64,000 nt of DNA from a virus. The position numbers and the translations under genes are program-made. The number at the start of each line of letters is the position of its first letter. The first letter of the stretch is position 1. The notes beneath the pieces are model-generated. The model was not told the DNA's origin, searched no databases, and was given only the letters and a program-made list of their open reading frames with translations. The stretch is from the IMG/VR virus record IMGVR_UViG_3300049460_000128, positions 186,001 through 250,000 of that record; one strand, 5' to 3'. Below, in pieces: positions 13,567 through 39,821 of this stretch.

Positions 13567-13571
13567 ATGCT

Positions 13572-13965: not shown

Positions 13966-14282
13966 AGGTGGGTGAGCTTGAAAATAGTTGCCGCTGCGTC
14001 ATCATCGAATGCGACGTGTGGCCAATATTGGTCGGTTCTCTGGTAGGTATGGGACACAGTAAGACCATGCTCTGGTCCCAAGTCTGCAATCTTGACTGGG
14101 TGCATGATCATATAACCACCAGCCGCATTGACGATCTCCCAGTATTCATCATCCAAGCCATAATAGCCATGGGTTTGAGCTTTGACTACTCGATTTGACG
14201 GCAAGCCCTTGGCTGCTGAATGCCAGTAATCTCGGGCGTCGTACCACCACCAGAGATTGGGAGGGCGAAAAATTACTGGCAT
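13962..14282 (-). CDS. FKL-family protein, 106 aa
   Basis: Start ATG 14282 (MPVIFRPPNLWWWYD) overlaps the upstream gene by 10 bases. Ends VAFDDDAAATIFKLTHL. Longest single-module member of this cluster, with an aromatic-rich N-terminus. Confidence 0.82.
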   Translation of the reverse strand: MPVIFRPPNLWWWYDARDYWHSAAKGLPSNRVVKAQTHGYYGLDDEYWEIVNAAGGYMIMHPVKIADLGPEHGLTVSHTYQRTDQYWPHVAFDDDAAATIFKLTHL

Positions 14283-14536
14283 GATAGTTTGAACATCACC
14301 GCATCTTCTTCTGTTTGGAAGCATGCCATTATTTGATAATAGGGCTTTCGCATGGTTATATACTGGTCCCCATTATGGAACGAGTAATCCATGGATGTCT
14401 TACATCGCACAAGATGGCCATTGTGTTGCTTGACCATTGCCTCATAGGGCGAGTTATCAAGCTTAGCCATGAAAGCTTCCGCGACAAAGCTCCATTCGAT
14501 AGTCACATATTCTTCTGGAGTAGGAATCTGAATCAT
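14273..14536 (-). CDS. FKL-family protein, 87 aa
   Basis: N-terminus MIQIPTPEEYVTIEW; C-terminus ACFQTEEDAVMFKLSCQ. Confidence 0.84.
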   Translation of the reverse strand: MIQIPTPEEYVTIEWSFVAEAFMAKLDNSPYEAMVKQHNGHLVRCKTSMDYSFHNGDQYITMRKPYYQIMACFQTEEDAVMFKLSCQ

Positions 14537-14787
14537 AGCTCGGTCAACTTGAACAACACTGCATCAGCGTCAGTCTCAAAGGTCAGGCATGGACGCACGG
14601 CCACGTATGGATAGCTTGTACCATCGGGCAGATGCTTGACTAGCTCGTGACGCTCAAATGTGAATTGACAATTGAACTGTTCGAGTACGTGCAGACGCCC
14701 ATCGGTTAACCCTGACAGACGAAACGTTTCTTGCTTTGCATCAAAGCCCCATTTGCACCATTCATACGGTATAATAACTTTAGTCAT
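14533..14787 (-). CDS. FKL-family protein, 84 aa
   Basis: N-terminus MTKVIIPYEWCKWGF; C-terminus LTFETDADAVLFKLTEL. Confidence 0.84.
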   Translation of the reverse strand: MTKVIIPYEWCKWGFDAKQETFRLSGLTDGRLHVLEQFNCQFTFERHELVKHLPDGTSYPYVAVRPCLTFETDADAVLFKLTEL

Positions 14788-14981
14788 AGGTGTTTGAGTT
14801 TGAAAATTGCAGCGTCACCTTCGTTTTCAAACTCAATAACCCACAGGTAATGACCATCATTATCTGGAGCAGTCGCGAACACCTTGTAGCCATCAGCCCG
14901 ATAGGCGGCTATCTTGTTGTTGAATACCACATTAGGTCTGATCCTAAAGTAATCCTCAGCTAGTATGAAATGAACACTCAT
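14784..14981 (-). CDS. FKL-family protein, 65 aa
   Basis: One of the shortest members; little more than strand, helix and terminal motif IEFENEGDAAIFKLKHL. Confidence 0.82.
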   Translation of the reverse strand: MSVHFILAEDYFRIRPNVVFNNKIAAYRADGYKVFATAPDNDGHYLWVIEFENEGDAAIFKLKHL

Positions 14982-15217
14982 AGGTATGTTAGTTTGAACA
15001 TCACGGCATCTTCTTCATTGCGGAAGATCAACTTACAATATCTCCGTACATGCGGTATCATAATACCTTTATATGGCCTTTCTGATCTTTCAGTACAGGT
15101 TTTCCGTATAGCATGAACATCAGTCAAGTATTGTTCTATTTCTTGATTGATGAAGGTTGGCTCACCCCTCCAGGCAATGGCTGCTGGGCTACCGGGAGGT
15201 ATGATAAGCTCGATCAT
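14978..15217 (-). CDS. FKL-family protein, 79 aa
   Basis: N-terminus MIELIIPPGSP; basic middle; ends LIFRNEEDAVMFKLTYL. Confidence 0.83.
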   Translation of the reverse strand: MIELIIPPGSPAAIAWRGEPTFINQEIEQYLTDVHAIRKTCTERSERPYKGIMIPHVRRYCKLIFRNEEDAVMFKLTYL

Positions 15218-15465
15218 TTGCCCGCGTAGGCCTTGAGTGTCTCCTTTATTGCTTCCTGCTTGGCTTCTTCGGGAGTCAGCACTGGCTTCAAAGTTTCAAC
15301 GAGCAGAACCAGATCATGGGCTGTATTGGAAATCGACAAGCGAGTGTGTTTGCCGTATTGCTTCTTGAATTCCTTCAGGCGGTCAATTGCGTCGGTGATA
15401 TCAGTATTCAGAATTGGCAATTGATTCACTACTGCCCAGGTCATTGGTTGTGTGTTTTTAGTCAT
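15214..15465 (-). CDS. Unrelated small protein inside the array, 83 aa
   Basis: No FKL motif. Helical, with a Lys/Glu-rich C-terminus (LTPEEAKQEAIKETLKAYAG). Overlaps the gene upstream by 8 bases and the one downstream by 4, so it is part of the operon. Not recognised. Confidence 0.78.
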   Translation of the reverse strand: MTKNTQPMTWAVVNQLPILNTDITDAIDRLKEFKKQYGKHTRLSISNTAHDLVLLVETLKPVLTPEEAKQEAIKETLKAYAGK

Positions 15466-15682
15466 TTGGTATACTCAGTTTGAAAATTGCCAGATCACTC
15501 TCGGTCATGAACAGAAGAGTGTTGTTCCTGCCATTGTATATGGCGCCAAGATTATTTGCTAACTCTTGACACCAACTTGTCAACACACAGATGCGATCAC
15601 GATCCTCATTTGCCATAAGGAAAGTGACTCGATAGAAGTCAGTCTCTTTACCTGTTGGGGTTGGCAGTTTGAATGAAATCAT
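15458..15682 (-). CDS. FKL-family protein, 74 aa
   Basis: Start MISFKLPTPTG overlaps the C-terminal tail of the upstream member by 35 bases, an unusually long overlap. Motif LLFMTESDLAIFKLSIP. Confidence 0.8.
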   Translation of the reverse strand: MISFKLPTPTGKETDFYRVTFLMANEDRDRICVLTSWCQELANNLGAIYNGRNNTLLFMTESDLAIFKLSIPND

Positions 15683-15899
15683 TGTATGTCAATTTGAATA
15701 AAGCTGCGTCCGTGTCAGTCTCGAATTTGATTACGTAGCGACGATGCATCACCCATGTATATTGAGTGTCCCGTTGATATTCATGTTCAATGGCATGTCC
15801 GGCCAGGCGGAACACATTAAGGTATTCATCTTCACCTAACACAATCTCTTGACACAAATTGAAGTGCGGATGCCATCTCGAAATTGGAATTGTGATCAT
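15648..15899 (-). CDS. FKL-family protein with tail, 83 aa
   Basis: Motif IKFETDTDAALFKLTYN followed by a short tail whose DNA also encodes the next gene's start. Confidence 0.82.
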   Translation of the reverse strand: MITIPISRWHPHFNLCQEIVLGEDEYLNVFRLAGHAIEHEYQRDTQYTWVMHRRYVIKFETDTDAALFKLTYNDFIQTANPNR

Positions 15900-16183
15900 A
15901 AGTGCGTGAGTTTGAACAAGGCAGCTTCATCTTGAGTGGGAAATACCAGCCAATAACGAAGGTCAAGTGTTTGAATGATAGTGTCGCACTTCAGATGCTC
16001 TAAGGCTGGGCGCAGGATGGGATTGAAGCGGATGAAATGTGTGATGCCGGCCGGTGGCCATTTCCATGGAGTCACTTCCAATGCGGTATCAGGCAAGGCC
16101 ACTGGATCACGATAGATCAGCACCTTACCGATAAAGAATTCACATATGAAGCGTTCGAGACGCGGCTCGTTGATGTAGTCCAT
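15896..16183 (-). CDS. FKL-family protein, 95 aa
   Basis: Start ATG 16183 (MDYINEPRLERF) is placed after a -10-like TATACT (16191-16196); the frame stays open to 16207. Ends LVFPTQDEAALFKLTHL. May head a sub-operon. Confidence 0.78.
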   Translation of the reverse strand: MDYINEPRLERFICEFFIGKVLIYRDPVALPDTALEVTPWKWPPAGITHFIRFNPILRPALEHLKCDTIIQTLDLRYWLVFPTQDEAALFKLTHL

Positions 16184-16231
16184 ATTGCCAGTATAACAAA
16201 GCCACATGATGGCAAGTCTGGCAATATTTCA

Positions 16232-16459
16232 CTATTGAGTGAATGGTTCCATGTGGATCTTATCGGCCCACTTGAGACGAAACACGGCCATATCCTCTTC
16301 GTCGTCAAGCCATATCATCTGCTGATTATGGCCAAGTTTTGATGTGATGGATCCCACACGACCATCAAGACGAATCTCCGCAAGATGCGATTGGTATCGA
16401 GTGAAGCAATCGTGATAATTGCGCCATAGTGGCGACAAGATTATGTATGCGTAAGTCAT
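16232..16459 (-). CDS. FKL-family protein with tail, 75 aa
   Basis: Motif IWLDDEEDMAVFRLKWA with R in place of K, then a 10-residue tail. Coupled upstream by ATGA. Confidence 0.8.
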   Translation of the reverse strand: MTYAYIILSPLWRNYHDCFTRYQSHLAEIRLDGRVGSITSKLGHNQQMIWLDDEEDMAVFRLKWADKIHMEPFTQ

Positions 16460-16713
16460 AGGTGAGTCAATTTGAACAAGGCCGCAGCCTCTTCGGAGTC
16501 AAAGAATAAACGGGCATTCTCGATATCAATCTTCACCTGATTATCCTTACAAGTCTTATAGAAGTCTTCTCGTAGGAACCGACGGCGCACAGGCAAACCA
16601 CCGTCGTTCCATCCCGAAAGAACGGTTATGACACCAAGTGGGCAGGCCAATGAAGCCACGCCGGAAGTCGCGGCATCTTCTGGATCAACAATCTCACCGA
16701 ATATGAAACTCAT
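16456..16713 (-). CDS. FKL-family protein, 85 aa
   Basis: Start ATG 16713 (MSFIFGEIVDPED) has AGG 8 bases before it; the longer frame to 16791 would lie inside the neighbour. Ends LFFDSEEAAALFKLTHL. Confidence 0.8.
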   Translation of the reverse strand: MSFIFGEIVDPEDAATSGVASLACPLGVITVLSGWNDGGLPVRRRFLREDFYKTCKDNQVKIDIENARLFFDSEEAAALFKLTHL

Positions 16714-16972
16714 ATTGTAGCCTAAAAAGTACCGCGTCTGCTTCAGTCTCGAAGATAAAATACGCTGACGACATACCTTCGCCATATCCAATTTTCACCT
16801 CATCGTTGGTCTGCTTACGGGCCTCAGACATGGATTCAATGAGATCAAACAATGGACTTACCGTTGCGGGGTCGCGAGTGTAGAAGGTCAGGTGATAGCT
16901 AATTTCACCACAGTGATTTGATAGAATTCCAGATCGCTCATGTAGTCGATGAGCATTTGATGACCACGCCAT
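16694..16972 (-). CDS. FKL-family protein with unclear start
   Basis: Motif FIFETEADAVLFRLQYE is clear, but the first ATG (16972) overlaps the upstream gene by 85 bases and gives an N-terminus unlike the family. By family comparison the protein should begin near ISYHLTFYTRDP (about 16909), where the in-frame codon is ATT after GGTGAA. A frameshift joining it to the end of the upstream gene (VVKLAIT) is another explanation. Confidence 0.65.
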   Translation of the reverse strand: MAWSSNAHRLHERSGILSNHCGEISYHLTFYTRDPATVSPLFDLIESMSEARKQTNDEVKIGYGEGMSSAYFIFETEADAVLFRLQYEFHIR

Positions 16973-17166
16973 AACGGGTGATCAGCCGTAGTGCTCAGAT
17001 GTTCAGGTGTCTTGGGCAAAAGCTCGTGCAAGACTATTGTGTGCAAGCCTGGGTTTTCTGGAAGAATCCAGTCGCACCAAGCTTCTGCTTCGTCTTCTTC
17101 TACATCGTATTTCTTTGCCGCGTATTCGATCAGATCGTCGGCTTCAACTCGTACATTATGGTGCAT
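16888..17166 (-). CDS. Acidic small protein inside the array, 92 aa
   Basis: Acidic and helical (YDVEEDEAEAWCDWILPENP). It lacks the FKL motif, though it ends VVKLAIT, faintly like one. Not recognised. Confidence 0.72.
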   Translation of the reverse strand: MHHNVRVEADDLIEYAAKKYDVEEDEAEAWCDWILPENPGLHTIVLHELLPKTPEHLSTTADHPLWRGHQMLIDYMSDLEFYQITVVKLAIT

Positions 17167-17168
17167 GA

Positions 17169-17375
17169 TTACAGGTGGGTTAGTTTAAAAAGTGCTGCGG
17201 CATCTTCGGTTCTGAAAAACATCAAACCACGTTTGGTGTCATAGCTGATCTTGTGTTCACGCAGTAAAGCACCGAACTCAGCAGTCACATGTGACTGTTC
17301 TTTCCAGTCACTAGTGTAATAGTAGAAGATACGAAATTTGTGGGGAATTTCAACTTTAATCTTGGAACGTTTCAT
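17169..17375 (-). CDS. FKL-family protein, 68 aa
   Basis: Basic N-terminus MKRSKIKVEIPHKF; ends MFFRTEDAAALFKLTHL. ATGA coupling upstream. Confidence 0.83.
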   Translation of the reverse strand: MKRSKIKVEIPHKFRIFYYYTSDWKEQSHVTAEFGALLREHKISYDTKRGLMFFRTEDAAALFKLTHL

Positions 17376-17584
17376 AGGTATGTGAGTTTGAAAAGTGCTG
17401 CCTCTGCTTCATTCTGGAAGTCTATGTAATAGCATAGCTTGAAGTTGAATTGGCCATATTCTTCGTGTTTGGTTTTCACCTTAAAGCCAGCTGCTTCTAA
17501 TTTATCGAACCACGCATACTCGGCAAGGGCTGTCACACTCGAGACTGAGTATGCCATTCGATCAAGCAAAATTATTCTAACCAT
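17372..17584 (-). CDS. FKL-family protein, 70 aa
   Basis: MVRIILLDRMAY start, eight-base overlap with the upstream gene; ends IDFQNEAEAALFKLTYL. Confidence 0.83.
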   Translation of the reverse strand: MVRIILLDRMAYSVSSVTALAEYAWFDKLEAAGFKVKTKHEEYGQFNFKLCYYIDFQNEAEAALFKLTYL

Positions 17585-17765
17585 AGTGCGTTAACTTCCA
17601 AATGACTGCATCGGCTTCAGTTTCAAACTCCATCCAAATTTGTCGTCGACCATCCACTTCACCCCACCTGGGTTCATGGCCTTTACTTCGCCATTCTATC
17701 AGATCTCGAACGAAGGAATTATTGCGTGGCCTCAGTATAGCATCGTAAAGGATTACTCGTATCAT
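17577..17765 (-). CDS. FKL-family protein, 62 aa
   Basis: Shortest clear member, a minimal version of the fold: MIRVILYDAIL start, MEFETEADAVIWKLTHY end, with W replacing F. Confidence 0.82.
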   Translation of the reverse strand: MIRVILYDAILRPRNNSFVRDLIEWRSKGHEPRWGEVDGRRQIWMEFETEADAVIWKLTHYG

Positions 17766-17959
17766 AGGAATTTCAATTTGAATATGGCAGCGTCATCGTC
17801 AGTATCAAAATCCACATAGTATCGATAGATGGCATACCGTGTGTCGTAGTTATATTGCACATCCGATCTAACCTCGAAACCAGCACTCGTTATTTGCGTC
17901 AGCAGTGTGCCCCATTGCTTGAAGTTGTATCGTGTTTGATCGAGTTCGATGTGAATCAT
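17762..17959 (-). CDS. FKL-family protein, 65 aa
   Basis: MIHIELDQTRYNF start; ends VDFDTDDDAAIFKLKFL, with an unusually acidic motif. Confidence 0.82.
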   Translation of the reverse strand: MIHIELDQTRYNFKQWGTLLTQITSAGFEVRSDVQYNYDTRYAIYRYYVDFDTDDDAAIFKLKFL

Positions 17960-18174
17960 TTGACGAAGATTTCCGGATAGGTGAGTTTGAATATCGCAGC
18001 CGCTTCTTCACTACTGAAGACCACCTTGTATTTCTTGTATTTACGGCCGGTCTCATCCAGATACTCATCGAAGTCAAATTTCACTTCTTCTTTGATGAAG
18101 ACTTCTCGGGCAGCAAGCCAACGATCCTTGGTCCACAAATGGTCGATGTTGATGCCTACTGTCAAGATATTCAC
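17956..18174 (-). CDS. FKL-family protein, 72 aa
   Basis: Lys/Glu-rich middle (EVFIKEEVKFDFDEYLDE); motif VVFSSEEAAAIFKLTYP plus five residues. Confidence 0.82.
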   Translation of the reverse strand: MNILTVGINIDHLWTKDRWLAAREVFIKEEVKFDFDEYLDETGRKYKKYKVVFSSEEAAAIFKLTYPEIFVK

Positions 18175-18428
18175 AGTACATTCAGCTTAAACAATGCCGC
18201 AGAAGCTTCGTCTGGGAACACCAGAGTCATACGTCGATTGTCGTTGATTGCTAGATGGGTACGATCAGTTAGATTATGTTTTTCCAAATATGCCTTGATT
18301 TCTGGCATTTTGAATTCCCAATGTGATGGGGTTCCCGGCCACACTTGTTTAGTGATACTTGCCGGATCGTATTCGTCATATACCAGTGCCGCTTTAAACA
18401 GGTGATAGGGGATAATAATAGGTACCAT
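18171..18428 (-). CDS. FKL-family protein, 85 aa
   Basis: Start ATG 18428 (MVPIIIPYHLFKAAL) by family comparison; ends LVFPDEASAALFKLNVL, near-identical in its last part to the member ending at 13083. Confidence 0.8.
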   Translation of the reverse strand: MVPIIIPYHLFKAALVYDEYDPASITKQVWPGTPSHWEFKMPEIKAYLEKHNLTDRTHLAINDNRRMTLVFPDEASAALFKLNVL

Positions 18429-18480
18429 TCTAGCCTCATTAAGTTTGCCACATGATAGTATGGCACCACACATAGGTAAA

Positions 18481-18690
18481 TTACATATGCGTCAACTTGA
18501 ACAAGGCAGCTTCAGTTTCATCAACGAACGGTATGTAGAAAAAACGTTTATCGGCCTCATCGTAATAGTTGACCATACATCCAAGTTTCTGATACTTAGA
18601 CGCCTGTGCGCGTAACCGCTCACGATGATCCAGTTCACTTTGTGGTGAATGATAACTGATTTTGGTGCTGCCAATTATGAGTTTGATCAT
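18481..18690 (-). CDS. FKL-family protein, 69 aa
   Basis: MIKLIIGSTKISY start; basic middle; ends IPFVDETEAALFKLTHM. A 52-base gap with a TGCCA/TGGCA inverted repeat separates it from the next gene. Confidence 0.82.
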   Translation of the reverse strand: MIKLIIGSTKISYHSPQSELDHRERLRAQASKYQKLGCMVNYYDEADKRFFYIPFVDETEAALFKLTHM

Positions 18691-18920
18691 AGATGAGTGA
18701 GCTTAAAGATTGCGGCGGTGGCATCATCCGAAAATCTAATCTTCAGTAAATGTGGTGCGGTCACTTCGCCATCACCAATAACAGTTCCACCCGCAGTCTT
18801 AATCAGTCGTATGGCGTCATTGGTGACGCCCCAGTACATGCAGTCGATGTACCAAGGGCTAACACTGTCTCGGGGTATAACTTCGATTAGCCATTGTTCT
18901 GGTACTGGAAGGTCGATCAT
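18687..18920 (-). CDS. FKL-family protein, 77 aa
   Basis: ATG 18920 (MIDLPVPEQW) overlaps the upstream stop as TGATG; a TTG one codon earlier is less likely. Ends IRFSDDATAAIFKLTHL. Confidence 0.82.
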   Translation of the reverse strand: MIDLPVPEQWLIEVIPRDSVSPWYIDCMYWGVTNDAIRLIKTAGGTVIGDGEVTAPHLLKIRFSDDATAAIFKLTHL

Positions 18921-19144
18921 CAATATGTCAATCTAAAAAGTACCGCTTCTTCTTCGGTTTTGAGGTACAGGTATGGTTCGTCAAATGGCTCGTCAACTTC
19001 AAAGTTTTCACCCAACAGTTCTTTGAGAATTGGTTTCGCATACTCAGATGGAAACTTTGCCAAAACACAATCATGGAAACATGGAGCCGATTTGATGTCA
19101 ATATCCCAACACCAAAATTTATCTGGCAACGGTACGCGAATCAT
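18920..19144 (-). CDS. FKL-family protein, 74 aa
   Basis: MIRVPLPDKFWCWDI start; acidic middle; ends LYLKTEEEAVLFRLTY. Confidence 0.82.
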   Translation of the reverse strand: MIRVPLPDKFWCWDIDIKSAPCFHDCVLAKFPSEYAKPILKELLGENFEVDEPFDEPYLYLKTEEEAVLFRLTY

Positions 19145-19419
19145 TGGAATCGACCTGCAATAAGTTCTTCAGGGAGTTCGCTCGCATCGACGCCATATTG
19201 TAGCTTGAATACTGCTGCTTCTGCTATCTCATTATCTGGAAAGATGGCATACCAGACTGTTGGATCATCGCCTATGTATTTGGGCGAACAGTCATGTGCT
19301 ATTTTTGCCTCATCCAACTCTGCAATGATGACGTTACAACGGGCCAGACCCGCAGTAGCTTCCTCATATGTGGCACCAGGCTTGAATCTATTTTTGATGT
19401 GGAAGATGATTCGAATCAT
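19141..19419 (-). CDS. FKL-family protein with tail, 92 aa
   Basis: Motif AIFPDNEIAEAAVFKLQYG has a two-residue insertion before FKL and a 17-residue tail. Confidence 0.8.
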   Translation of the reverse strand: MIRIIFHIKNRFKPGATYEEATAGLARCNVIIAELDEAKIAHDCSPKYIGDDPTVWYAIFPDNEIAEAAVFKLQYGVDASELPEELIAGRFQ

Positions 19420-19655
19420 AGGTGTGTGAGCTTAAAAATGGCTGCTTCGGACTCGGTGGCGAATTCACACCAGAAGATATACGAAATGCTTTTGTCATAT
19501 ATAAACGACGTTGGCAAATCCATCATGCACAGCTTTTTGTTGTCGGTTGGTCTAGCTTCGAGTTTGATGTTGTTATCTGTTAGCATTTGCAGAAATTCAA
19601 CCGTATTTTTGAAGGTGTTCATGAACACCTGGACCTTGATTGTTTGGAGTGCCAT
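19416..19655 (-). CDS. FKL-family protein, 79 aa
   Basis: MALQTIKVQVFMNTF start, TAATG overlap upstream; ends CEFATESEAAIFKLTHL. Confidence 0.82.
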   Translation of the reverse strand: MALQTIKVQVFMNTFKNTVEFLQMLTDNNIKLEARPTDNKKLCMMDLPTSFIYDKSISYIFWCEFATESEAAIFKLTHL

Positions 19656-19882
19656 TACATGTAGGTGAGTTTGAAGATTGCTGCTTGTGTATCGTCGGCA
19701 AATACCACCACAACTTCAACATCATATTGCTCGTTGAGATACGAAAGCGAATAACCCTCGTCTTTGAGTTGGCGCTCAAGAACTGCACGACGTTCTTCTT
19801 CAATGATCCATTCAGATTTAGACCATATCTTCTCACGCATAAATGCGTACTTCAAATAGGAGTACAGGTAATGGCTTCTCAT
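19655..19882 (-). CDS. FKL-family protein, 75 aa
   Basis: ATG 19882 (MRSHYLYSYLKYAF) gives an ATGA overlap with the upstream stop. Long charged helix, then VVFADDTQAAIFKLTYM. Confidence 0.8.
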   Translation of the reverse strand: MRSHYLYSYLKYAFMREKIWSKSEWIIEEERRAVLERQLKDEGYSLSYLNEQYDVEVVVVFADDTQAAIFKLTYM

Positions 19883-20148
19883 TGATGATGTCCGTATTTC
19901 AGTTTCCACATGACTGCTTCTTCATCACTGTTAAACACCAGATGGATATCCCAGTTAACTTTTTCTGGTTTCAACGTGTAGGCTTCAGCAGGCAATGGTT
20001 GTCTTGCGATAACCCAACCCGGGAAATCGAAACGTACACCAGTCATGTCGATGCCAATAGGTACCATTACGCGCTTGAACATGGAAGTGTACGTTGAGGG
20101 ATGAGTCACGTACTCTATCCACGAGTTTGGTACTCGTATTCTGGTCAT
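19879..20148 (-). CDS. FKL-family protein, 89 aa
   Basis: MTRIRVPNSWIEYV start; motif LVFNSDEEAVMWKLKYG with W in place of F. Confidence 0.83.
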   Translation of the reverse strand: MTRIRVPNSWIEYVTHPSTYTSMFKRVMVPIGIDMTGVRFDFPGWVIARQPLPAEAYTLKPEKVNWDIHLVFNSDEEAVMWKLKYGHHQ

Positions 20149-20351
20149 AGGTGTGTCAACTTAAACATTGCGGCATCTTCTTCTGTATCGAATTCCATCC
20201 ATGCCTTTATCAAAATCGGGCGCATCATGAGTCCATTATATTCGGACTGACGTACGACTGGATGATTTTCGTTCTCCAACTTGTGTACACAGCGTATGGC
20301 CTCAACGGTAGATGGTGTGCCATACATGTCAAATAATAAAATCTTGATCAT
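20145..20351 (-). CDS. FKL-family protein, 68 aa
   Basis: MIKILLFDMYGTP start, similar to the member at 17577-17765; ends MEFDTEEDAAMFKLTHL. Confidence 0.83.
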   Translation of the reverse strand: MIKILLFDMYGTPSTVEAIRCVHKLENENHPVVRQSEYNGLMMRPILIKAWMEFDTEEDAAMFKLTHL

Positions 20352-20542
20352 AGGTGCGTCAATTTGAACAATGCAGCTTCATCTTCGGTATCAAACCACA
20401 TGTAGATCCACGAGTCATCCATTGCATATTGATAGCCCAGACGAATGATCTTAACACCCATGGCATCTACTTTGGACCAATCACGCCGCATTGCTGGCAC
20501 CGCCGGGTCTTCTGGTAACTTGATGACATTTAGACGGATCAT
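20348..20542 (-). CDS. FKL-family protein, 64 aa
   Basis: ATG 20542 (MIRLNVIKLPED) gives the usual 4-base overlap; ends MWFDTEDEAALFKLTHL. Confidence 0.82.
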   Translation of the reverse strand: MIRLNVIKLPEDPAVPAMRRDWSKVDAMGVKIIRLGYQYAMDDSWIYMWFDTEDEAALFKLTHL

Positions 20543-20739
20543 ATTCTGAGCTTCCATATGGCGTATGCGGCCTCATTGGGGAATTCAATATACCATTTCA
20601 AATGACGTCCCACCTTTTCATACTTGAAAATACTGCCATCAAGCCGTGCTAAGTCGATTTGCTTTGAGACCAATTCATATCGTTCTTTAGTTACATCGTC
20701 TTCTTCTTCCGAATCTAACACCTTGATTGTTATGGTCAT
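20539..20739 (-). CDS. FKL-family protein, 66 aa
   Basis: MTITIKVLDSEEEDDV start; ends IEFPNEAAYAIWKLRI, a diverged motif with W and R. Confidence 0.8.
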   Translation of the reverse strand: MTITIKVLDSEEEDDVTKERYELVSKQIDLARLDGSIFKYEKVGRHLKWYIEFPNEAAYAIWKLRI

Positions 20740-20954
20740 AGGTGCGTGAGTTTAAAAAGCATAGCTTCCTCTTCGGTCTCAAATTCCCAATAAGCCTGAA
20801 CAAGCCCTTCTGTTTCTTCCCGCACGATTGGGCGTGGTAAGTCAGGATGAGCAGACACCCAGGTTGCAGCGGCGCCGCGTAACTTCAAATGGAGCATAAT
20901 AGTGTTTCCTGATACACCAATTGCGCCCAATTCACGAAAGATTACCTTAGCCAT
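20736..20954 (-). CDS. FKL-family protein, 72 aa
   Basis: Ends WEFETEEEAMLFKLTHL. Shares GLVQAY-x-EFETEEEA with its upstream neighbour, so the two are a recent tandem duplicate. Confidence 0.83.
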   Translation of the reverse strand: MAKVIFRELGAIGVSGNTIMLHLKLRGAAATWVSAHPDLPRPIVREETEGLVQAYWEFETEEEAMLFKLTHL

Positions 20955-21177
20955 GCAATGACTCCCAATTGGTTAATTTGTACAGGGCAGCTTCTTCTTC
21001 AGTCTCAAACTCAACATAAGCTTGCACGAGACCCTGACCTTGGTTACGGGTGACTGGACGTTGCTGTGAAGGATTTTTGACGTGCCAGCGATTGTATTTC
21101 ATCATCAACCACATTTCAGTTGTGAGGGCCGCCGAGTTGGAATTGGTTTGACGTTCGTCAATGATCAATCGAAACAT
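20947..21177 (-). CDS. FKL-family protein, 76 aa
   Basis: Motif VEFETEEEAALYKLTNW (Y in place of F) plus a short tail. Tandem duplicate partner of the gene at 20736-20954; their N-terminal halves are already dissimilar. Confidence 0.83.
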   Translation of the reverse strand: MFRLIIDERQTNSNSAALTTEMWLMMKYNRWHVKNPSQQRPVTRNQGQGLVQAYVEFETEEEAALYKLTNWESLHG

Positions 21178-21179
21178 GA

Positions 21180-21398
21180 TTACATGTGAGTGAGTTTGAA
21201 GAGGAGCGCCTCTTCATCGTTGGGAAATTCCCAATAGAGATAAATTTCTTCGTCTGTTTCGTCAATACTGAGTAGTGGCATCCAGTTAAATTGATTGCGC
21301 CAACCATAACTAATAAGCCTCACATCAAAGCGCTGCATGTCTTGCATAAAGTCATCGCCAGTACTGAGAGGCTCGCGGTATACTATTAGTCGATACAT
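21180..21398 (-). CDS. FKL-family protein, 72 aa
   Basis: MYRLIVYREPLSTG start right after a terminator hairpin; ends WEFPNDEEALLFKLTHM. No separate Shine-Dalgarno is visible other than GGGGAG in the hairpin stem. Confidence 0.82.
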   Translation of the reverse strand: MYRLIVYREPLSTGDDFMQDMQRFDVRLISYGWRNQFNWMPLLSIDETDEEIYLYWEFPNDEEALLFKLTHM

Positions 21399-31722: not shown

Positions 31723-32147
31723 TAACGACGCCCATTGTCAAATGCACGACGTGTGATGTCGTTCATGGTCTTGAGATCATGGATAGACATATTGACTTCA
31801 CCCAGGTAGCCGATGATTGAGCGAATGAAAACCACAATATGTGGCTCATGATCGGGCATTGTTTCGAGTTCCTTGAAGGCGTCTTGGAACGACGGATAAA
31901 CGATTTTAGAGTCTTCCTGCTCCGCAACCTCACGAGCGATGTCAATAAGCTTTTCCATGACGTCCTCGCCATAATACCAGCGCATTGCACCCAACAGATC
32001 AGACATCTCAATCAAAGCCATGATGACGCAGAACTGTTCAAATGCGTCCATGCACTCAAGGTATTCTTCTCGAATCTTGGAGAATTCCCCCAAGACGCCT
32101 TTTTCGATTACACGAATATGGTAACCAGGATTTTCTTCTTTGCTCAT
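31722..32147 (-). CDS. MazG-like NTP pyrophosphohydrolase
   Basis: 141 aa, all-helical. IREEYLECMDAFEQ supplies the E-E-x-x-E helix and ALIEMSDLLGAMRWY the E-x-x-D helix of the all-alpha NTP-PPase fold. Such phage enzymes cleave non-canonical dNTPs or tune (p)ppGpp. Coupled to the FKL gene upstream. Confidence 0.6.
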   Translation of the reverse strand: MSKEENPGYHIRVIEKGVLGEFSKIREEYLECMDAFEQFCVIMALIEMSDLLGAMRWYYGEDVMEKLIDIAREVAEQEDSKIVYPSFQDAFKELETMPDHEPHIVVFIRSIIGYLGEVNMSIHDLKTMNDITRRAFDNGRR

Positions 32148-32530
32148 ATATCTGAATAGGTTAAACGAAACATTACGGCATCTGCCAGATCATCAAAGCC
32201 AAGCAGGTAACCACCTGAGATTAAAGATCGCGGCGATGCCATTTGAGTTACTGCATAACGACGAGCCGTGATATTACCAACTGTCATAATATCCGATGTT
32301 ACAAGACCAAACCATTTTGTCGCTGGAGTATCTCTACGTAAGGTCAAACGCTTTACGCCACTGTTGAGCAACACAAAGGTTTGGCACTGGTGCTCCAACA
32401 ATTCGTCATACATGCTGGGCTTCATCCAGAATAATACGCCCGGAATATTGATGTCACCATAGGTTGATACGCGCTCGTCAGTCACGATACACTGTATATC
32501 AACACCTGGAAGGGTTACGGTTATTGCCAT
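32144..32530 (-). CDS. FKL-family protein, second cluster, 128 aa
   Basis: MAITVTLPGVDIQC start shared in pattern (hydrophobic-x-L-x-G-V) with three neighbours; ends LGFDDLADAVMFRLTYS. Confidence 0.82.
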   Translation of the reverse strand: MAITVTLPGVDIQCIVTDERVSTYGDINIPGVLFWMKPSMYDELLEHQCQTFVLLNSGVKRLTLRRDTPATKWFGLVTSDIMTVGNITARRYAVTQMASPRSLISGGYLLGFDDLADAVMFRLTYSDI

Positions 32531-32850
32531 GTTAGTTTGAACATCGTTGCTACTGAAAGGTCATTGAACAGAAACAACATGTGGGGCGTATAATCGCCCA
32601 AGTAGATGTTGCCATTGGAGATGATATGAATAGGCACAGACGCATATGGACATGGCATTGGGTCAGACCAAGATTCCACAGTCCAATCCTCATATGCTTC
32701 ACGTGTGATGATGACGCCAATTTCCCAATCGTACAACGTTTTGTCAGTGAAGTGTGAAAACCACTTGCAAGTGGAGAACCCGTCATTTTCCGTCTTACGC
32801 GAACGAGTGGTCCAGATTGGTTCACTAACGCCTGCGGGCTTAAAGATCAT
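32521..32850 (-). CDS. FKL-family protein, second cluster, 109 aa
   Basis: ATG 32850 (MIFKPAGVSEPIW) chosen over GTG 32856, giving an ATGA overlap. Ends FLFNDLSVATMFKLTWQ. Confidence 0.8.
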   Translation of the reverse strand: MIFKPAGVSEPIWTTRSRKTENDGFSTCKWFSHFTDKTLYDWEIGVIITREAYEDWTVESWSDPMPCPYASVPIHIISNGNIYLGDYTPHMLFLFNDLSVATMFKLTWQ

Positions 32851-33176
32851 GACCACCTCAACTTGAAAAGTGCCGCAATGTCTTCACGTTCAAACACAAA
32901 GATACTATGGATATCATTTGAACTACTAGCCAGATTGATAGCATGCACCAGTTCATACTCGCCAGGATCATCAATGCCGAGATTATTGTGTGTGGTGATA
33001 TGTTCCTTCAATTTGGTGGTGGTTTTCGATGAAACCAGCACAGCATAGCCATCCGTCAGGCTGATGGATTTAGTCACAGTGAACCAGTGACTATCGAGTG
33101 CCGCAGCCGAATTGAACGCAGATAGGTCAGCATCGAACCATATCGCACCGTCAAGGCCTTTTAATTGTATTTGCAT
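32847..33176 (-). CDS. FKL-family protein, second cluster, 109 aa
   Basis: ATG 33176 (MQIQLKGLDGAIWF) by family comparison. Ends FVFEREDIAALFKLRWS. Confidence 0.8.
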   Translation of the reverse strand: MQIQLKGLDGAIWFDADLSAFNSAAALDSHWFTVTKSISLTDGYAVLVSSKTTTKLKEHITTHNNLGIDDPGEYELVHAINLASSSNDIHSIFVFEREDIAALFKLRWS

Positions 33177-33241
33177 GATGAATTGGTAGATTAGGTGCCA
33201 TAGTATGGCACGCCAAACTGGTTGCCACAATAATACCTGAA
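33177..33241. repeat. GTGCCA/TGGCAC inverted repeat between FKL genes
   Basis: GTGCCATAGTATGGCAC around 33196-33212. A related palindrome is the terminator stem at 13586-13606 and a half-matching one lies near 18450, so a GTGCCA palindrome recurs in gaps between FKL genes. Confidence 0.5.
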
Positions 33242-33583
33242 CTATAGCCAGGTAAGCTTGAACATCACGGCATCTTCCAGCGCCCTAAAACCAAACAATG
33301 TTAAGCATTGCACTCTAGAATTTTTGCCAACTACATACCACACTGGCGTTTTAGTGACCGGATAGCCAATTTCTGATAGAAATTCATCCCAAGCGGTAGG
33401 GGTTTTGAACTTTAGGGTGGCAGATGGCACCAGGATGTACTGTGTATTTTGCGAATTTATAAGTGGCAAAAACTTGTTACCATCAATAACGTATTTCGTT
33501 TGATCATCTATAATTCGCAGAAATGACAAATTGTCAGACAGAATGTGAATAGGATGGGGCACGCCCTTGAGATTAACTATCAT
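33242..33583 (-). CDS. FKL-family protein, second cluster, 113 aa
   Basis: MIVNLKGVPHPIHIL start; ends FGFRALEDAVMFKLTWL. The FGF strand is shared with the next member upstream. Confidence 0.82.
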   Translation of the reverse strand: MIVNLKGVPHPIHILSDNLSFLRIIDDQTKYVIDGNKFLPLINSQNTQYILVPSATLKFKTPTAWDEFLSEIGYPVTKTPVWYVVGKNSRVQCLTLFGFRALEDAVMFKLTWL

Positions 33584-33876
33584 GGATAGGTCAACTTGAA
33601 CAAAACGGCTTGAGTTTCATCTTTGAAGCCAAACATCATAACGGCATCAAGCTCTCGCCCATTTTCGACCGGATACACGGGGCCCATGATCACTCGGGAA
33701 AAGTCCGGATTGTTAACTATGTCAAGCGAAATGACACGAGAATGCTGATACGGACGTATCAAACAATGCACACAATCCGCGTAGACATTTTTCATGAATG
33801 GCGAACGATATACATCAGTTGAGTTACGGATACCGTTGAATGATACAGGGCCTATGCCTGGTAGAATTACTTGCAT
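33580..33876 (-). CDS. FKL-family protein, second cluster, 98 aa
   Basis: ATG 33876 (MQVILPGIGPVSF) with AAAGGAG upstream; ends FGFKDETQAVLFKLTYP. First gene after the promoter at 33895. Confidence 0.82.
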   Translation of the reverse strand: MQVILPGIGPVSFNGIRNSTDVYRSPFMKNVYADCVHCLIRPYQHSRVISLDIVNNPDFSRVIMGPVYPVENGRELDAVMMFGFKDETQAVLFKLTYP

Positions 33877-34825: not shown

Positions 34826-37804
34826 TTACCACTTGAACAAATCGTTACTTACATCTTCGTTGGTCAAGGTCAAGTCCCACTTCAAAACACCCAAGAGGTT
34901 GTTCAATTTGAAGTCGATGATTGTCTCTTCCATCGTAGTGTGATCAAACGGCAATTCTTTGAACCACTGCGGCAAGTGCGGCTCGTCAATCGGATAAGCG
35001 ATTGAGGTCATACCCATCGGATTTGGCTTCAGTTTGCAAACAATGATCTTCTGACCATCAGTCAATGACATGGAGAAATTGTCGTTGTGCATCTTACGCA
35101 ATTTCATGTAATTGATCGAGGCCAAAACGTGCCCAGCAATGATGTCTCGCTTCTTCTTTTCATTGGCTTTGTGGCCAGCGTAAATGTCCAGCTTACCAGC
35201 ACTTGCATTATTGACCATGTTCGTTTTCTCAGTCAAGCCATTGCACTTCTTAGGCGAACCTTTTTCCCAACCTGGTTTGTTCCTGAACTCTTTCCTGAAC
35301 ACTTTGATCATGTCAAAGATTTCATCCTGGGACTTACCAGTCAGCGTTGCCATCAGCACGTCTTCCAAGAAGTCTTGCATGTATTGTGGCGTGTCTGAAC
35401 GTTTCAGGTCCAAGCCCATAACTTTCAGCTTACCAGGTTTGCCGTCAATGTCGTAGCGCTCACCCTCTTTGTCGTACATGAGGACCGCGTACTTCTTCTT
35501 CTTGATGAACAAGCCCTTAGAAGCGACGAGTTCGCGACCTGCTGCGATAATTCCACCGCGCTCGATGCCAGTGTTGAAACCCTTGTGCATGAACTCTGGG
35601 AAGCTCTCATTGACTGCATCACCAATGCCATCATACAGTTGAATAATGTTGTCACGAGTGAATTCAAAACTTGCATATTCAGGACGCTTCTGCCATACAG
35701 CTTTCGCACTGAAGTAACTGGAGTCAGTATCCGCGTAGATGATTGCCTCACCCTTGAAGTCATACTCACCTGTGATGATCTCGTTAATCTTCGAGTTCAT
35801 GTGTTTGGCAATCGAACGACCAGTCAACGTTACTGATTGACCAATACGTTTGTCGTAGAACTTCATGCTGGAGTTCAACAACGCACCATACAAACTGTTA
35901 AGCAGAATCTTACGCGCTTGCTGACGTTGATTCCAGAATGTCTTCCAATACTTGGCATCCTTTTCATCATTAGCAGTAATGCGCCCATCTTCGATCACAA
36001 AATTGTGATTGACCATTACCTGAGCTACAACCTTGGCATCTTTCTTGTACAGGGCTTTCGTGAACGCGCCCGAGTCCAAATCATTTGCGGTCAGGGTTGG
36101 CAGCAATCCATTTACTTCAGAGATGAAAGCACTTGGATCAGCATCGAAAGTCTTTGCCAAGTTGGTGCTCTTATCAGTCACATATGCGAAAGTTTTCTCG
36201 CGTGCCTGCATCTCTTTACGCTGACGATACCACGTCGCCAGCAAGCTTGGAATCACGCCAACTTTGTCAGTGCGGAAGATCGTGCCGTTTGCAGTAATGC
36301 ACAGTGGGCGACCTTCGTGGAAGATGAAGTTGTACAGTTCATCAGCCCTAAATACCTTAGTTGTGCCATCTTCAAAGTCAACCGTAATTGCATCCTTGGT
36401 ACGAGCCATAACCTTGTCGTATTCCAGAGTAGAGAATACATTTTCCCACAGTTCAGGCTTTGGTACTTTGTTAGCAATCCGCATTGCGATCATGGCTTCA
36501 GTATCCAGCGGACGAATGTGACCATACAACGTCTCAGGACTCATGTTCAATGCGCGCAGCGTTGATGGGTACAGGGAGTTAATGTCGCAGCAACCAATCT
36601 CATCCTGAATACCAGTCTTCGGCTTGGCCACGTATGCGCCAACGGCCGCATTGCTCAAGTCTTCTTCGTCATCATCGTCCGAATCAAATTCTTCGTCGAA
36701 CTCGTCATCAACTACTTCGGCGGCTTTACGGTCAGGGATGACCATACCCAGGTCATGTGCTTCCAGCATGATCGAGTTTTCGATCAAGGCCACGGAGCCA
36801 TTAGTGGTCTTCAACAGCACGCAGTTGGTGTGCGCAATCTGATTGGCCAGTTCGATGAATTTCTTCTTGGCATCAATCTTAACCATCAGCATAACGTCTT
36901 GACGGTTGTATTCAAGGAAGCGTTCAAAGTCCTTCTTGTACAAGTCGTCTAGCGTACCTTCGTAGACGGTCTTGTTTTCTTTCACCTCAATCTCGCCAAC
37001 GAAGTCAAGACGATATGAGTGCAACTGCTGTGGATTGTGCTTCTGATACAGTTCCAGATAGTCAAGGTGAATACGACCCACTGTATCGTAGGTGATACTT
37101 TTCTTCTTGAACTTGATGTACTCACGACGACGTGGCAATTGATTCCACAAACAGAAGCGACGAGTCTCATCTTTGCTGATCACTCGAGTGATTCGATTCA
37201 CCAAATATGGTACGTCGAAGCCGGTTGAGTTCCAACCAGTAATCACATCTGAGTCTTCAATGATATCCAGGAATGCTTTCAGCATATCACCTTCGTCTTC
37301 GAACAAGAAGCTGTTCTCAAACTTGTCATTGATACGCTGTGCTTCTTCGATCGCCATACCTGGAGGTGGCATGCACAGCGTTACCAATTGATTAGCCCAA
37401 CTCAAGTATACGGAAATTGCGGTCACGTTATTGAACGGGTCTTCGGTTGGTGCGAATCCTCGTTTAGTATCAAACGCGACCTCAATGTCGAAAAATGCGA
37501 TATTGAGTGCTGGTGCTTCAATGTTTCGGTAGTTTTCTTCCAGACTGCGGAAGACAGGATTGACATCGCTTTCAAACAAACGCTTGTTTGCTAGGATGTT
37601 TTTTTCACGGTTAAATGCTTTACCGTTATTGGTACTATACTTGCTGAGGGCATCACCAAAAATACTAACATGGTTGCCTCGTGTATCAGGGTAATACAGT
37701 GTGTAGTTACATGGCAGAGTCTTGTGAACTCGTTCTCCATTTACACGTTCAACGACCAGGATCTGATCTTTCTCCCGGACGTGCATCGCATCAATATAAC
37801 TCAT
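34826..37804 (-). CDS. 43: Family-B DNA polymerase (T4 gp43-like)
   Basis: 992 aa. 3'-5' exonuclease motifs FFDIEVAF, VITGWNSTGFDVPYLVNR and YNRQDVMLMVKID; polymerase motifs A (DINSLYPSTLRALNM), B (ARKILLNSLYGALLN) and C (IIYADTDSSYFS). All catalytic acids are present. The C-terminal SNDLFKW probably binds the clamp, as the gp43 tail does. An acidic insert (DDEFDEEFDSDDDDEEDL) before motif A is unusual. Shine-Dalgarno GAGG lies 7 bases before ATG, inside the duplicated leader. Confidence 0.96.
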   Translation of the reverse strand: MSYIDAMHVREKDQILVVERVNGERVHKTLPCNYTLYYPDTRGNHVSIFGDALSKYSTNNGKAFNREKNILANKRLFESDVNPVFRSLEENYRNIEAPALNIAFFDIEVAFDTKRGFAPTEDPFNNVTAISVYLSWANQLVTLCMPPPGMAIEEAQRINDKFENSFLFEDEGDMLKAFLDIIEDSDVITGWNSTGFDVPYLVNRITRVISKDETRRFCLWNQLPRRREYIKFKKKSITYDTVGRIHLDYLELYQKHNPQQLHSYRLDFVGEIEVKENKTVYEGTLDDLYKKDFERFLEYNRQDVMLMVKIDAKKKFIELANQIAHTNCVLLKTTNGSVALIENSIMLEAHDLGMVIPDRKAAEVVDDEFDEEFDSDDDDEEDLSNAAVGAYVAKPKTGIQDEIGCCDINSLYPSTLRALNMSPETLYGHIRPLDTEAMIAMRIANKVPKPELWENVFSTLEYDKVMARTKDAITVDFEDGTTKVFRADELYNFIFHEGRPLCITANGTIFRTDKVGVIPSLLATWYRQRKEMQAREKTFAYVTDKSTNLAKTFDADPSAFISEVNGLLPTLTANDLDSGAFTKALYKKDAKVVAQVMVNHNFVIEDGRITANDEKDAKYWKTFWNQRQQARKILLNSLYGALLNSSMKFYDKRIGQSVTLTGRSIAKHMNSKINEIITGEYDFKGEAIIYADTDSSYFSAKAVWQKRPEYASFEFTRDNIIQLYDGIGDAVNESFPEFMHKGFNTGIERGGIIAAGRELVASKGLFIKKKKYAVLMYDKEGERYDIDGKPGKLKVMGLDLKRSDTPQYMQDFLEDVLMATLTGKSQDEIFDMIKVFRKEFRNKPGWEKGSPKKCNGLTEKTNMVNNASAGKLDIYAGHKANEKKKRDIIAGHVLASINYMKLRKMHNDNFSMSLTDGQKIIVCKLKPNPMGMTSIAYPIDEPHLPQWFKELPFDHTTMEETIIDFKLNNLLGVLKWDLTLTNEDVSNDLFKW

Positions 37805-37811
37805 TTTAATT

Positions 37812-37846
37812 CCTCATATCCCATTTTTGGCTGGGTGACCCTATTG
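37812..37846 (-). repeat. Polymerase leader, copy A of a 35-bp direct repeat
   Basis: 33 of 35 bases identical to 38586-38620. Contains the polymerase Shine-Dalgarno (GAGG) and a CCCA/TGGG stem with an 8-base loop just before it, comparable in layout to the T4 gp43 translational operator. Confidence 0.8.
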
Positions 37847-37896
37847 AATTATCACATTTCAGTGATACTTGAGTTTAACAAAGCCATCTAAAAACT

Positions 37897-37904
37897 CATA
37901 AATA
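37897..37904 (+). promoter_or_regulatory. T4-late-like octamer for the GIY-YIG gene
   Basis: CATAAATA on the plus strand, 64 bases before the endonuclease start. Confidence 0.5.
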
Positions 37905-37967
37905 GAAAATGCCAGTCGCGATGTCCCCACATCCACTGGCTCTAACTACTTTCAAGGAGTAATCAGC

Positions 37968-38555
37968 GTGGCTATTTATAGCATCTACACCTTTACCAAT
38001 ATGACTAATCAAAAAGTGTATGTTGGTATATCAAACAACCCAGAACGACGTATGAAGACTCATATTTCTATGTCAAACAACAGTTCAAACTATCTGTTAC
38101 ATAAGGCAATCCGTAAATATGGCGTCGACAAATTTACGTTCAATGTAATAGCTCAAACGTGGACGAAAGAACTGGCATTTTCATTAGAGCAATATTTCAT
38201 TGATGATTTGGCATCGTATTTTCATGACTCTAGATTTGGTGGATACAACATGACCAAAGGTGGCGATGGTGTTGATTCCGAAACTGCTCGTAAAAATATT
38301 CAAAAACGAAATAAGTCGGCGGTTGCCGCTGGCACCCATAATTTTCAAGGCGATACTGGCTCGCAAATGCAAAAGGATAGATTTGCTGCCGGTACACATA
38401 ACTGGTCTGGTGATAATGGCAAGCTACTATCCAAGCAACGGTTTGATGATGGCACACATAATCAATTACTAGTTCATGTATGTCCACATTGCCAAAAACG
38501 AGGAAAAGGGGCAGTGATGTTTAGACATCACTTTGAACGGTGCAAACATCGTTAA
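37968..38555 (+). CDS. GIY-YIG homing endonuclease (Seg-like)
   Basis: 195 aa, starting at GTG 37968 with AAGGAG 8 bases upstream. YSIYTFTNMTNQKVYVGISN is the GIY-YIG core, with R at PERRMKTH and the catalytic glutamate in LEQYFIDDL. Three repeats around AAGTHNFQGD, AAGTHNWSGD and DDGTHN follow, then a C-terminal zinc finger (CPHCQKRGKGAVMFRHHFER then C). It is inserted on the opposite strand in the polymerase leader, between two copies of a 35-bp repeat. Confidence 0.9.
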   Translation: MAIYSIYTFTNMTNQKVYVGISNNPERRMKTHISMSNNSSNYLLHKAIRKYGVDKFTFNVIAQTWTKELAFSLEQYFIDDLASYFHDSRFGGYNMTKGGDGVDSETARKNIQKRNKSAVAAGTHNFQGDTGSQMQKDRFAAGTHNWSGDNGKLLSKQRFDDGTHNQLLVHVCPHCQKRGKGAVMFRHHFERCKHR

Positions 38556-38585
38556 TTGCATCAACGTATGACATTACTTACTTAC

Positions 38586-38620
38586 CTCATATCCCATTTC
38601 TGGCTGGGTGACCTTATTGT
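38586..38620 (-). repeat. Polymerase leader, copy B of the 35-bp repeat
   Basis: Lies 14 bases downstream of a TATACT -10 (38634-38639) on the minus strand but no longer next to a start codon. Two base changes from copy A, one in the hairpin loop. Confidence 0.8.
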
Positions 38621-38633
38621 GGTTTGGCAGTCA

Positions 38634-38662
38634 GTATATGGCTTCTATACTGACTTGCCTAT
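38634..38662 (-). promoter_or_regulatory. Probable original polymerase promoter
   Basis: Minus-strand TAGGCA (38657-38662), 17-base spacer, TATACT (38634-38639). It now reads first through copy B and antisense through the endonuclease before the polymerase gene. Confidence 0.5.
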
Positions 38663-38967
38663 TAACCGTGCCAGGTATTCCACAGTCCCACAATATCAAT
38701 ACACCAGAAGAACAGATTCAAGAACACCCAGAACCCATTCGACCGCATGTAACTTGATACCATGAGCAAACTGCTACCACACAGGTAGAAGAAATACACT
38801 TCAAGCAAATTTGGATTCGGCGCGGTTATTGCCAATGACCCACTTGCTATCATACATGACAGCGTGCCAGCCATTTCAATCCAAAAGACCAGGGGATTTT
38901 CACGCAAGTCCTTGCGCCAATTCTCGATGATCCCGTCGAAGAACTGCTTATTGAAAATATTACGCAT
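38662..38967 (-). CDS. Small membrane protein, 101 aa
   Basis: Three hydrophobic spans (about residues 28-48, 55-72 and 78-98) after a charged N-terminus (WRKDLREN). Overlaps the phosphatase gene upstream by 8 bases. Not recognised; the size suggests an inner-membrane accessory protein. Confidence 0.75.
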   Translation of the reverse strand: MRNIFNKQFFDGIIENWRKDLRENPLVFWIEMAGTLSCMIASGSLAITAPNPNLLEVYFFYLCGSSLLMVSSYMRSNGFWVFLNLFFWCIDIVGLWNTWHG

Positions 38968-39427
38968 TGCTATCCTTATCAGTCGGAGCCAATGCCATTA
39001 GCCATTCCGTGAATGTTTCGTTATGAAGAGCATCAGCTCCTCGTTCAGCACGAATGTGCTCTATGGCGTCACCAGGCGTCATACCGCGCTTGATCAACGC
39101 AAGAGCTATAACCAGTGCTGAACGGTTCAAACCCGCGCTACAGTGAACGAGGGTTGGTCCCATACTTGTGAATCTGTTAACAGTTTCAGCAAGCTCATGA
39201 AGCTTTGTCAAATCAGGCATCCAGGCAGCATCGTCGAATGGATAAACAATCGCCATTGTGCCATTAGGAATGTGATAAGTTGGAGCCTTATTTACCGCAA
39301 TGATGTACTGATATCGCATCGCATCAACGGGATTGCCACCAATCCAAAGATTGTCAGCAATCTTGTCTTCGTTGTTGACCAGAACAATTCCGCCAAAGCT
39401 TGACTTCAGTTTGTCACTTATCTTCAT
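38960..39427 (-). CDS. Dual-specificity protein phosphatase
   Basis: 155 aa. GPTLVHCSAGLNRSALVIAL contains the H-C-x5-R catalytic loop; an aspartate in YPFDDAAWMPDL is a likely general acid. Expected to remove phosphate from proteins or RNA 5' ends. Overlaps the upstream lipoprotein gene by 14 bases. Confidence 0.87.
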   Translation of the reverse strand: MKISDKLKSSFGGIVLVNNEDKIADNLWIGGNPVDAMRYQYIIAVNKAPTYHIPNGTMAIVYPFDDAAWMPDLTKLHELAETVNRFTSMGPTLVHCSAGLNRSALVIALALIKRGMTPGDAIEHIRAERGADALHNETFTEWLMALAPTDKDSNA

Positions 39428-39821
39428 TTAATCCCAATGCCTTTCGGTCACTATCTGACAATTTGTCCAGTGCTTCTTTACGTTGACGAGCAAACTGGAT
39501 GGCCTTGAACTCTTCGTCGCTCATTGGCTTGCCAATTGTTGCCTTATAGACATCAGTCTTACCCTCACGATATGCTTCGTTGGTGACTGCCTTGTCTGGG
39601 CAAATGACCACATTCATGGTAGCCAGATATACTGAACTTCCATTTGGCTTATACCAAGACAGATCACCAACTTCACAATTACGGAAGGTGCCATATTTTA
39701 CAAACTTGGCTTCATTGCTCTTGCCTTGCAGTACATCCTGGACGATTGGCTCGTTGGGATCTTTACTACATGCAGACAGGGCAACCGCCAGCAAACTTGC
39801 TACTAAGAGTGATTTCTTCAT
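39414..39821 (-). CDS. Lipoprotein, 135 aa
   Basis: Signal MKKSLLVASLLAVALSAC ends in a lipobox (LSAC), so it is lipidated at Cys18. The rest is soluble and acidic and would face the periplasm. Could be a superinfection-exclusion type protein, which is a guess. Confidence 0.82.
   Translation of the reverse strand: MKKSLLVASLLAVALSACSKDPNEPIVQDVLQGKSNEAKFVKYGTFRNCEVGDLSWYKPNGSSVYLATMNVVICPDKAVTNEAYREGKTDVYKATIGKPMSDEEFKAIQFARQRKEALDKLSDSDRKALGLNEDK

Follow-up and report, generated by a model that had tools for sequence, protein, structure and literature searches.

Polymerase start duplicated around an endonuclease gene

The locus raises the question of how an endonuclease gene came to lie, on the opposite strand, between two leaders of one DNA polymerase gene, and what its arrival did to that gene. 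The window analysed here is the whole stretch of 64,000 nucleotides, positions 186001-250000 of an uncultured large-phage record of 296,594 bases in total. Two copies of a 35-bp direct repeat flank the endonuclease (37812-37846 and 38585-38619; 33/35 bases identical, 773 bases from start to start), exactly as located by a previous sequence-only reading, which had also rightly placed copy A beside the polymerase start. The features of the locus, from low to high coordinates, are:

34826-37804, minus strand: family B DNA polymerase gene, intact, 992 aa, starting MSYIDAMHV (Pfam DNA_pol_B and exo1; phrog_262 DNA polymerase, 1.9e-181)
37812-37846, minus strand: leader copy A (direct-repeat comparison), ending 7 nt before the polymerase ATG
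37815-37812, minus strand: SD sequence GAGG of copy A, 7 nt before the ATG
37835-37832 / 37823-37820, minus strand: hairpin stem of copy A (CCCA/TGGG), with loop GCCAAAAA at 37831-37824
37968-38555, plus strand: GIY-YIG endonuclease gene, 195 aa, GTG start, finger-like C-terminal end CxxC...HxxxxC
38521-38574, minus strand: 17-codon open frame beginning at the stub, MSYVDAINDVCTVQSDV (read from the sequence)
38554-38574, minus strand: stub of the old polymerase start, ATG plus codons 2-7, MSYVDAI (codon reading and start-pattern scan)
38585-38619, minus strand: leader copy B (direct-repeat comparison)
38588-38585, minus strand: SD sequence GAGG of copy B, 10 nt before the ATG
38608-38605 / 38596-38593, minus strand: hairpin stem of copy B, with loop GCCAGAAA at 38604-38597
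38662-38967, minus strand: 101-aa gene resembling, by eye, the gene directly before the polymerase in four related loci (L002, L003, L005, L006)

Comparison of the two flanks of the GIY-YIG gene with each other recovered the repeat at E = 3.8e-10; none of 11 other phage GIY-YIG genes treated likewise gave a repeat below E = 0.049, leaving the window's own as the one among the 12 compared with a flanking repeat of this kind. Along the polymerase strand the order is: the 101-aa gene, leader B, SD, ATG and seven codons (MSYVDAI); then the antisense endonuclease, the endonuclease 5' region, leader A, SD, ATG and the whole polymerase. The homology continues beyond copy B, a point overlooked in the earlier reading, through the SD and the ATG into seven codons of the polymerase, as far as the stop codon of the endonuclease: the GAGG of copy B is followed by ten bases and then by ATG TCA TAC GTT GAT GCA ATT, the last of these codons touching the stop codon of the GIY-YIG gene. 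Because this stub abuts the endonuclease stop, the endonuclease sits within an old polymerase start. The proposal that an insertion duplicated the 5' region of the polymerase stands, while its restriction to the leader does not: the duplicated unit comprises leader, SD, ATG and seven codons, indicating that the insertion occurred in the coding start and not in the leader. Since the 101-aa gene still adjoins copy B, copy B marks the ancestral position. This anatomy and the stub are shown by direct comparison of the letters.

Given its origin in an uncultured virus record, the window could in principle be an assembly chimera of two related phages. This is very unlikely: the longest exact run common to copies A and B is 15 nt, short for an assembler to join on (typical assembler word lengths exceed such a run), and the junction between stub and endonuclease has no repeat.

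Two different polymerase starts

The window was compared with 85 related loci (L002-L006 and L008-L087), which include near-duplicates (e.g. L003/L004, L017/L019, L021/L022, L069/L070 and L072/L087) and cover about 170 to 4000 bases of upstream sequence. A start-codon-pattern scan recovered the annotated polymerase start in 85/85 loci and found two in the window, at 38574 and 37804; no related locus has a second start by this pattern (0/85), the sole extra match, in L059, lying inside the polymerase frame. Starts like the stub occur in relatives (L006, MSYVDAIY; L008, MSYVDAIF).

The stub and the intact start agree at 14/21 bases (82 distinct polymerase starts: mean 15.8, sd 1.9). Five of the seven differences are silent, and Ser2 is encoded by TCA in the stub but by AGT in the intact start; by their codons, the two look like pieces of two different functional polymerase genes. 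The leaders differ at 2/35 bases and the starts at 7/21 (Fisher P 0.010, or 0.0046 without the ATG, for a split chosen post hoc), and two diverged parents alone therefore fit poorly. The contrast would be consistent with selection acting on the leader as RNA, recoding of the start against cutting, or homogenisation of the leaders. The polymerase is closest to that of L003 (73% identity), and sliding identity along the gene is mosaic, without a clear break in kinship; a donor breakpoint within the polymerase was sought in this pattern, which was not decisive.

These figures also bear on an event inside one phage, that is, a tandem or long target duplication with the endonuclease between the copies and later divergence. 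It would account for leaders that are 33/35 identical, more than the starts suggest for separate phages, and a long target duplication should leave just such a succession: leader-to-codon-7, insert, leader-to-codon-7. A free stub, however, should not keep the residues of the family while changing 7/21 bases, a TCA/AGT serine among them, and GIY-YIG enzymes leave 2-nt overhangs according to the consulted part of PMC2988022, far below some 65 nt. We regard this origin as unlikely, though a serious competitor.

A self-splicing intron joining stub to polymerase, with copy A within it, is extremely improbable. Removal of the 770 nt between homologous positions would yield a believable protein, and the boundaries (a T in front, a final G) would be compatible with a group I intron, a coincidence expected about 1 time in 16. 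On the other hand, Rfam gave no match at curated cut-offs in L001, which spans the region, and no credible match at E up to 5 in 37700-38760, so that no group I or II core was found there; furthermore, the endonuclease runs antisense, and copy A is followed by an ATG and has an SD of its own.

The endonuclease gene

The 195-aa product belongs to the GIY-YIG family (Pfam GIY-YIG, 44.9 bits, cut-off 22.6), matches the homing endonucleases of phrog_314 (9.3e-24) and aligns to I-TevI structures (1mk0, 1ln0) at E about 0.003, an alignment in which we take the catalytic Arg and Glu positions of I-TevI to be kept. Having its own gene without an intron, inside or beside a conserved polymerase gene, it is predicted to be a free-standing homing-type endonuclease. 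A search for close relatives of it gave one partial match (31%) in viral_contigs and 355 phage records, each below 60% identity. Its 5' region contains:

37897-37904, plus strand: CATAAATA, a sequence that we take to resemble the T4 late promoter box, with a putative promoter role
37911-37940, plus strand: hairpin GCCAGT...ACTGGC, upstream of the ribosome site of the gene (37954-37959)

The 83-nt stretch with this hairpin folds with z -1.52 (17/200 shuffles as low). An operator of the I-TevI type, in which the endonuclease promoter resembles the target, was sought in six comparisons with mixed outcome: the endonuclease 5' region scored well against a relative-like start (6/1000 shuffles as good) and poorly against copies A and B (258/1000 and 980/1000). 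As six comparisons were made in all, such an operator is not claimed.

The leader hairpin as a conserved RNA element

The leader is itself conserved as RNA. It forms a hairpin whose 8-nt loop reads GCCNNAA(A), and many uncultured phages have this element, often as a tandem pair, in front of their polymerase gene. A search for stems of at least four pairs with an 8-base loop GCC..AA, at most 120 bases upstream of the polymerase, found it in 48/85 related loci (19 single, 29 double) and in both window copies. The background elsewhere in these loci was 23 in 1,498,744 positions, or 0.0018 expected per leader, a control that takes in two true elements, those of L068 lying further upstream. Among 78 distinct units chosen for the loop word and nothing else, the inner four pairs formed in 75, 74, 73 and 72, and the pairing vanished once one arm was shifted. 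An alignment of 76 of these units (one unit of L013, overlapping a better one, and one of L016, unpaired, were left out) gave a covariation score of 0.821 compared with 0.285 for shuffled alignments (0/500 shuffles as high), with 89.5% of cells pairing vs 60.5% in shuffles; the invariant GCC..AA loop is itself a consequence of selecting units by that motif. The single leaders A, B and L003 fold no better than shuffles (z 0.71, -0.40 and 0.80), and the case for an RNA element therefore rests on covariation and not on energy. The L003 leader has one hairpin with a different stem (TGCCG/CGGCA) and a loop identical to that of copy B.

The element appears to be tied to one gene. A scan of viral_contigs for the tandem-loop and linker pattern gave at least 120 matches, all those listed lying upstream of this polymerase: 118 directly before its start and 2 with a small gene between (of the 80 matches itemised, 11 are contigs already part of the data set). 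An RNA-model search of the window's own record (296,594 bases) returned copies A and B as its two best matches, both part of the training set; a third (17.1 bits, E 0.055) had broken pairs, and the hairpin was rejected as the element of a regulon. The exact leader pattern had 0 matches in viral_contigs. Rfam gave no match at curated cut-offs in seven loci, and none credible with E as high as 5. The hairpin is absent from 37/85 related loci, including L002, L005 and L006 (67-72% polymerase identity), and from seven named jumbo phages (Phosso, Atu_ph07, 121Q, Vibrio 2.275.O, whose annotated polymerase start is doubtful, RaK2, GAP32 and SE_PL).

Two leader hairpins in 29/85 related loci would suggest that the endonuclease simply entered between tandem hairpins, and in the letter they match what the earlier reading had named as its refutation, namely two leader copies in endonuclease-free relatives. 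These hairpins, however, share one leader ahead of a single start, their loops being about 27-33 nt apart, whereas each window copy has its own SD and polymerase start; as no second start occurs in the 85 loci, tandem hairpins leave copy B unexplained. Moreover, the closest relatives by polymerase, L003 and L004, have a single hairpin each. Entry between tandem hairpins was ruled out by the stub, and we consider it scarcely credible.

As separate observations, a TAAATA box, presumably T4-late-like, lies 24-30 bases before the first hairpin loop in 52/94 distinct leaders (shuffled mean 6.6). In L068 (2898-3512), L160 and L126 the tandem leader hairpins are separated from the polymerase by a small gene, without a duplicated start; that of L068 matches a PHROG named ferrochelatase, the polymerase hairpins there preceding a foreign gene.

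Promoter-like sequences before the two leaders

According to the earlier reading, a promoter-like TATACT before copy B marks the promoter from which the insertion separated the polymerase. The hexamer is present, 13 nt before copy B (38638-38633, minus strand), and its signal is weak. The features concerned are:

37848-37856, minus strand: TGTGATAAT, a weak extended -10-like sequence (GATAAT at 37853-37848 after TG), 1-2 nt upstream of copy A
38629-38655, minus strand: 10-bp perfect inverted repeat with a 7-nt loop, holding TATACT, without a T run

The inverted repeat folds better than expected (56-nt stretch, z -4.93, 0/200 shuffles as low), and no terminator was found at 38629-38655. A consensus promoter scan of 1.3 kb found 4 sites compared with 3.6 in shuffles. 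TATACT is therefore weak evidence of a promoter, since it lies within the inverted repeat and the scan count is as in shuffles. No -35 was found for TGTGATAAT, which is also absent from the promoter-scan matches. As copy A has its own GATAAT and the box of neither copy stands out in the scan, a separation of the polymerase from its promoter is possible but unsupported.

Proposed origin of the duplicated start

The most probable account is a one-sided insertion at about codon 7 of the polymerase that brought a replacement leader and start, with the hairpin as a control element. A free-standing GIY-YIG gene would have entered the polymerase at about codon 7 and supplied a substitute for the part that it broke. 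The target of the enzyme, now or formerly, may be the conserved polymerase start in a related phage without the endonuclease gene. Repair through homology on the polymerase side only would then have copied the polymerase start, leader and endonuclease of the donor, while the other end was joined, without homology, to the broken start. What remains of the recipient start would be the stub and leader B, and leader A with the differently coded start would be the donor's; we infer this route between two related phages from the arrangement of the copies. Sequence searches, viral_contigs included, brought up no close relative, whether carrying the insert or lacking it, so that donor and recipient are not seen.

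The hairpin would bind a protein and so control translation of the polymerase, with the polymerase, as in T4, the most likely ligand. If it does have this regulatory role, a viable insertion would have needed a leader besides a start codon. As a widespread RNA element with clear covariation before one gene, the leader makes autogenous control of replication testable far outside the T4 group.

A further reading, offered tentatively and with less confidence than the one-sided insertion, is that of a gene-repair cassette, in which the endonuclease cuts the most strongly conserved part of the phage polymerase gene, the start, and carries a recoded, cleavage-resistant start together with the operator hairpin governing polymerase synthesis. 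Such a cassette would enter essential coding sequence without needing an intron, the invaded polymerase would become dependent on it, and the near-identical leaders beside divergent starts would then reflect selection for a start that resists cleavage. The usual view of free-standing endonucleases is that they either keep out of coding sequence or split genes; breaking an essential gene while restoring its start and control region, as this cassette would, amounts to a third way, known so far from fungal mitochondria, where it concerns the opposite end of the gene.

Comparison with known systems

The nearest analogue found is in fungal mitochondria, where, in the parts of the reports consulted, mobile endonuclease ORFs have produced gene hybrids (atp6 of Allomyces and Glomus; atp9, cox2 and nad3 of Glomus) by bringing a replacement C-terminus (PMC3630166, PMC4019555). 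For atp6 of Glomus, identity between the two ends is 63.5% in bases and 91% in residues (PMC3630166, PMC4019555). As in the window, an endonuclease lies in a conserved essential gene between two diverged copies of a gene end, one functional and the other displaced, and the differences are mostly silent, there read as transfer between species. The fungal cases as reported differ in that the 3' end is replaced and the endonucleases are mostly LAGLIDADG, whereas the window is from a phage and has a 5' end with leader and an antisense endonuclease. Since the N-terminus and leader are duplicated, and not the C-terminus, the locus would work like a fungal hybrid and is not filed as one. These hybrids, as far as they are set out in PMC3630166, were overlooked in the earlier statement that a duplication of this kind does not normally accompany insertion by homing enzymes.

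The free-standing seg and mob endonucleases of T4-type phages, among them seg43(25) in gene 43 of Aeromonas phage 25, are described in the consulted part of PMC2988022. They share with the window the GIY-YIG type, the lack of an intron, a replication gene next to or around the endonuclease, and a T4-late-like box and hairpin before the endonuclease gene. In that part of PMC2988022 the insertions are intergenic or gene-splitting, in contrast to the duplicated polymerase start of the window, and no duplication is described in the seg/mob account ('duplicat' occurs 0 times in the available text). Nor do the available parts of the phage-endonuclease reviews PMC2988022 and PMC10448857 describe a duplicated start.

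The window hairpins resemble the T4 operator in standing just upstream of the ribosome site of the polymerase, as they do in 48/85 loci and both copies. The T4 leader reads AGCCU-AAUAACUC-GGGCU, which we take to fold as a hairpin with an 8-nt loop, the loop length also found here. The consulted part of PMC3014915 describes for the T4/RB69 operator how T4 gp43 binds the hairpin before its own start and represses translation. That operator has a UAAC-type loop, whereas the window element has GCCNNAA(A), without a UAAC-type loop, and often forms two hairpins, with a putative polymerase binding; conversely, the T4 leader contains no GCC..AA. In the open-access literature, no account was found of the leader RNA element or of gene hybrids formed at the 5' end.

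Other observations in the region

Upstream of the locus, phosphatase-like and lipoprotein-like genes (38960-39821, minus strand) lie between the 101-aa gene and a 92-aa gene, the counterparts of which look adjacent in L002, L003, L005 and L006. In Agrobacterium phage Atu_ph07 (L089, 2953-5966) the annotation splits the polymerase into two adjacent CDS, and directly upstream of it, on the opposite strand, lies a 165-aa ORF. Elsewhere in the window, 29 small ORFs of 65-128 aa on the minus strand (24 in 12626-21398 and 5 in 32144-33876) share a C-terminal motif like F-x-x-[DE]-x-x-A-A-[LMI]-FKLTHL, on bodies that look unrelated.
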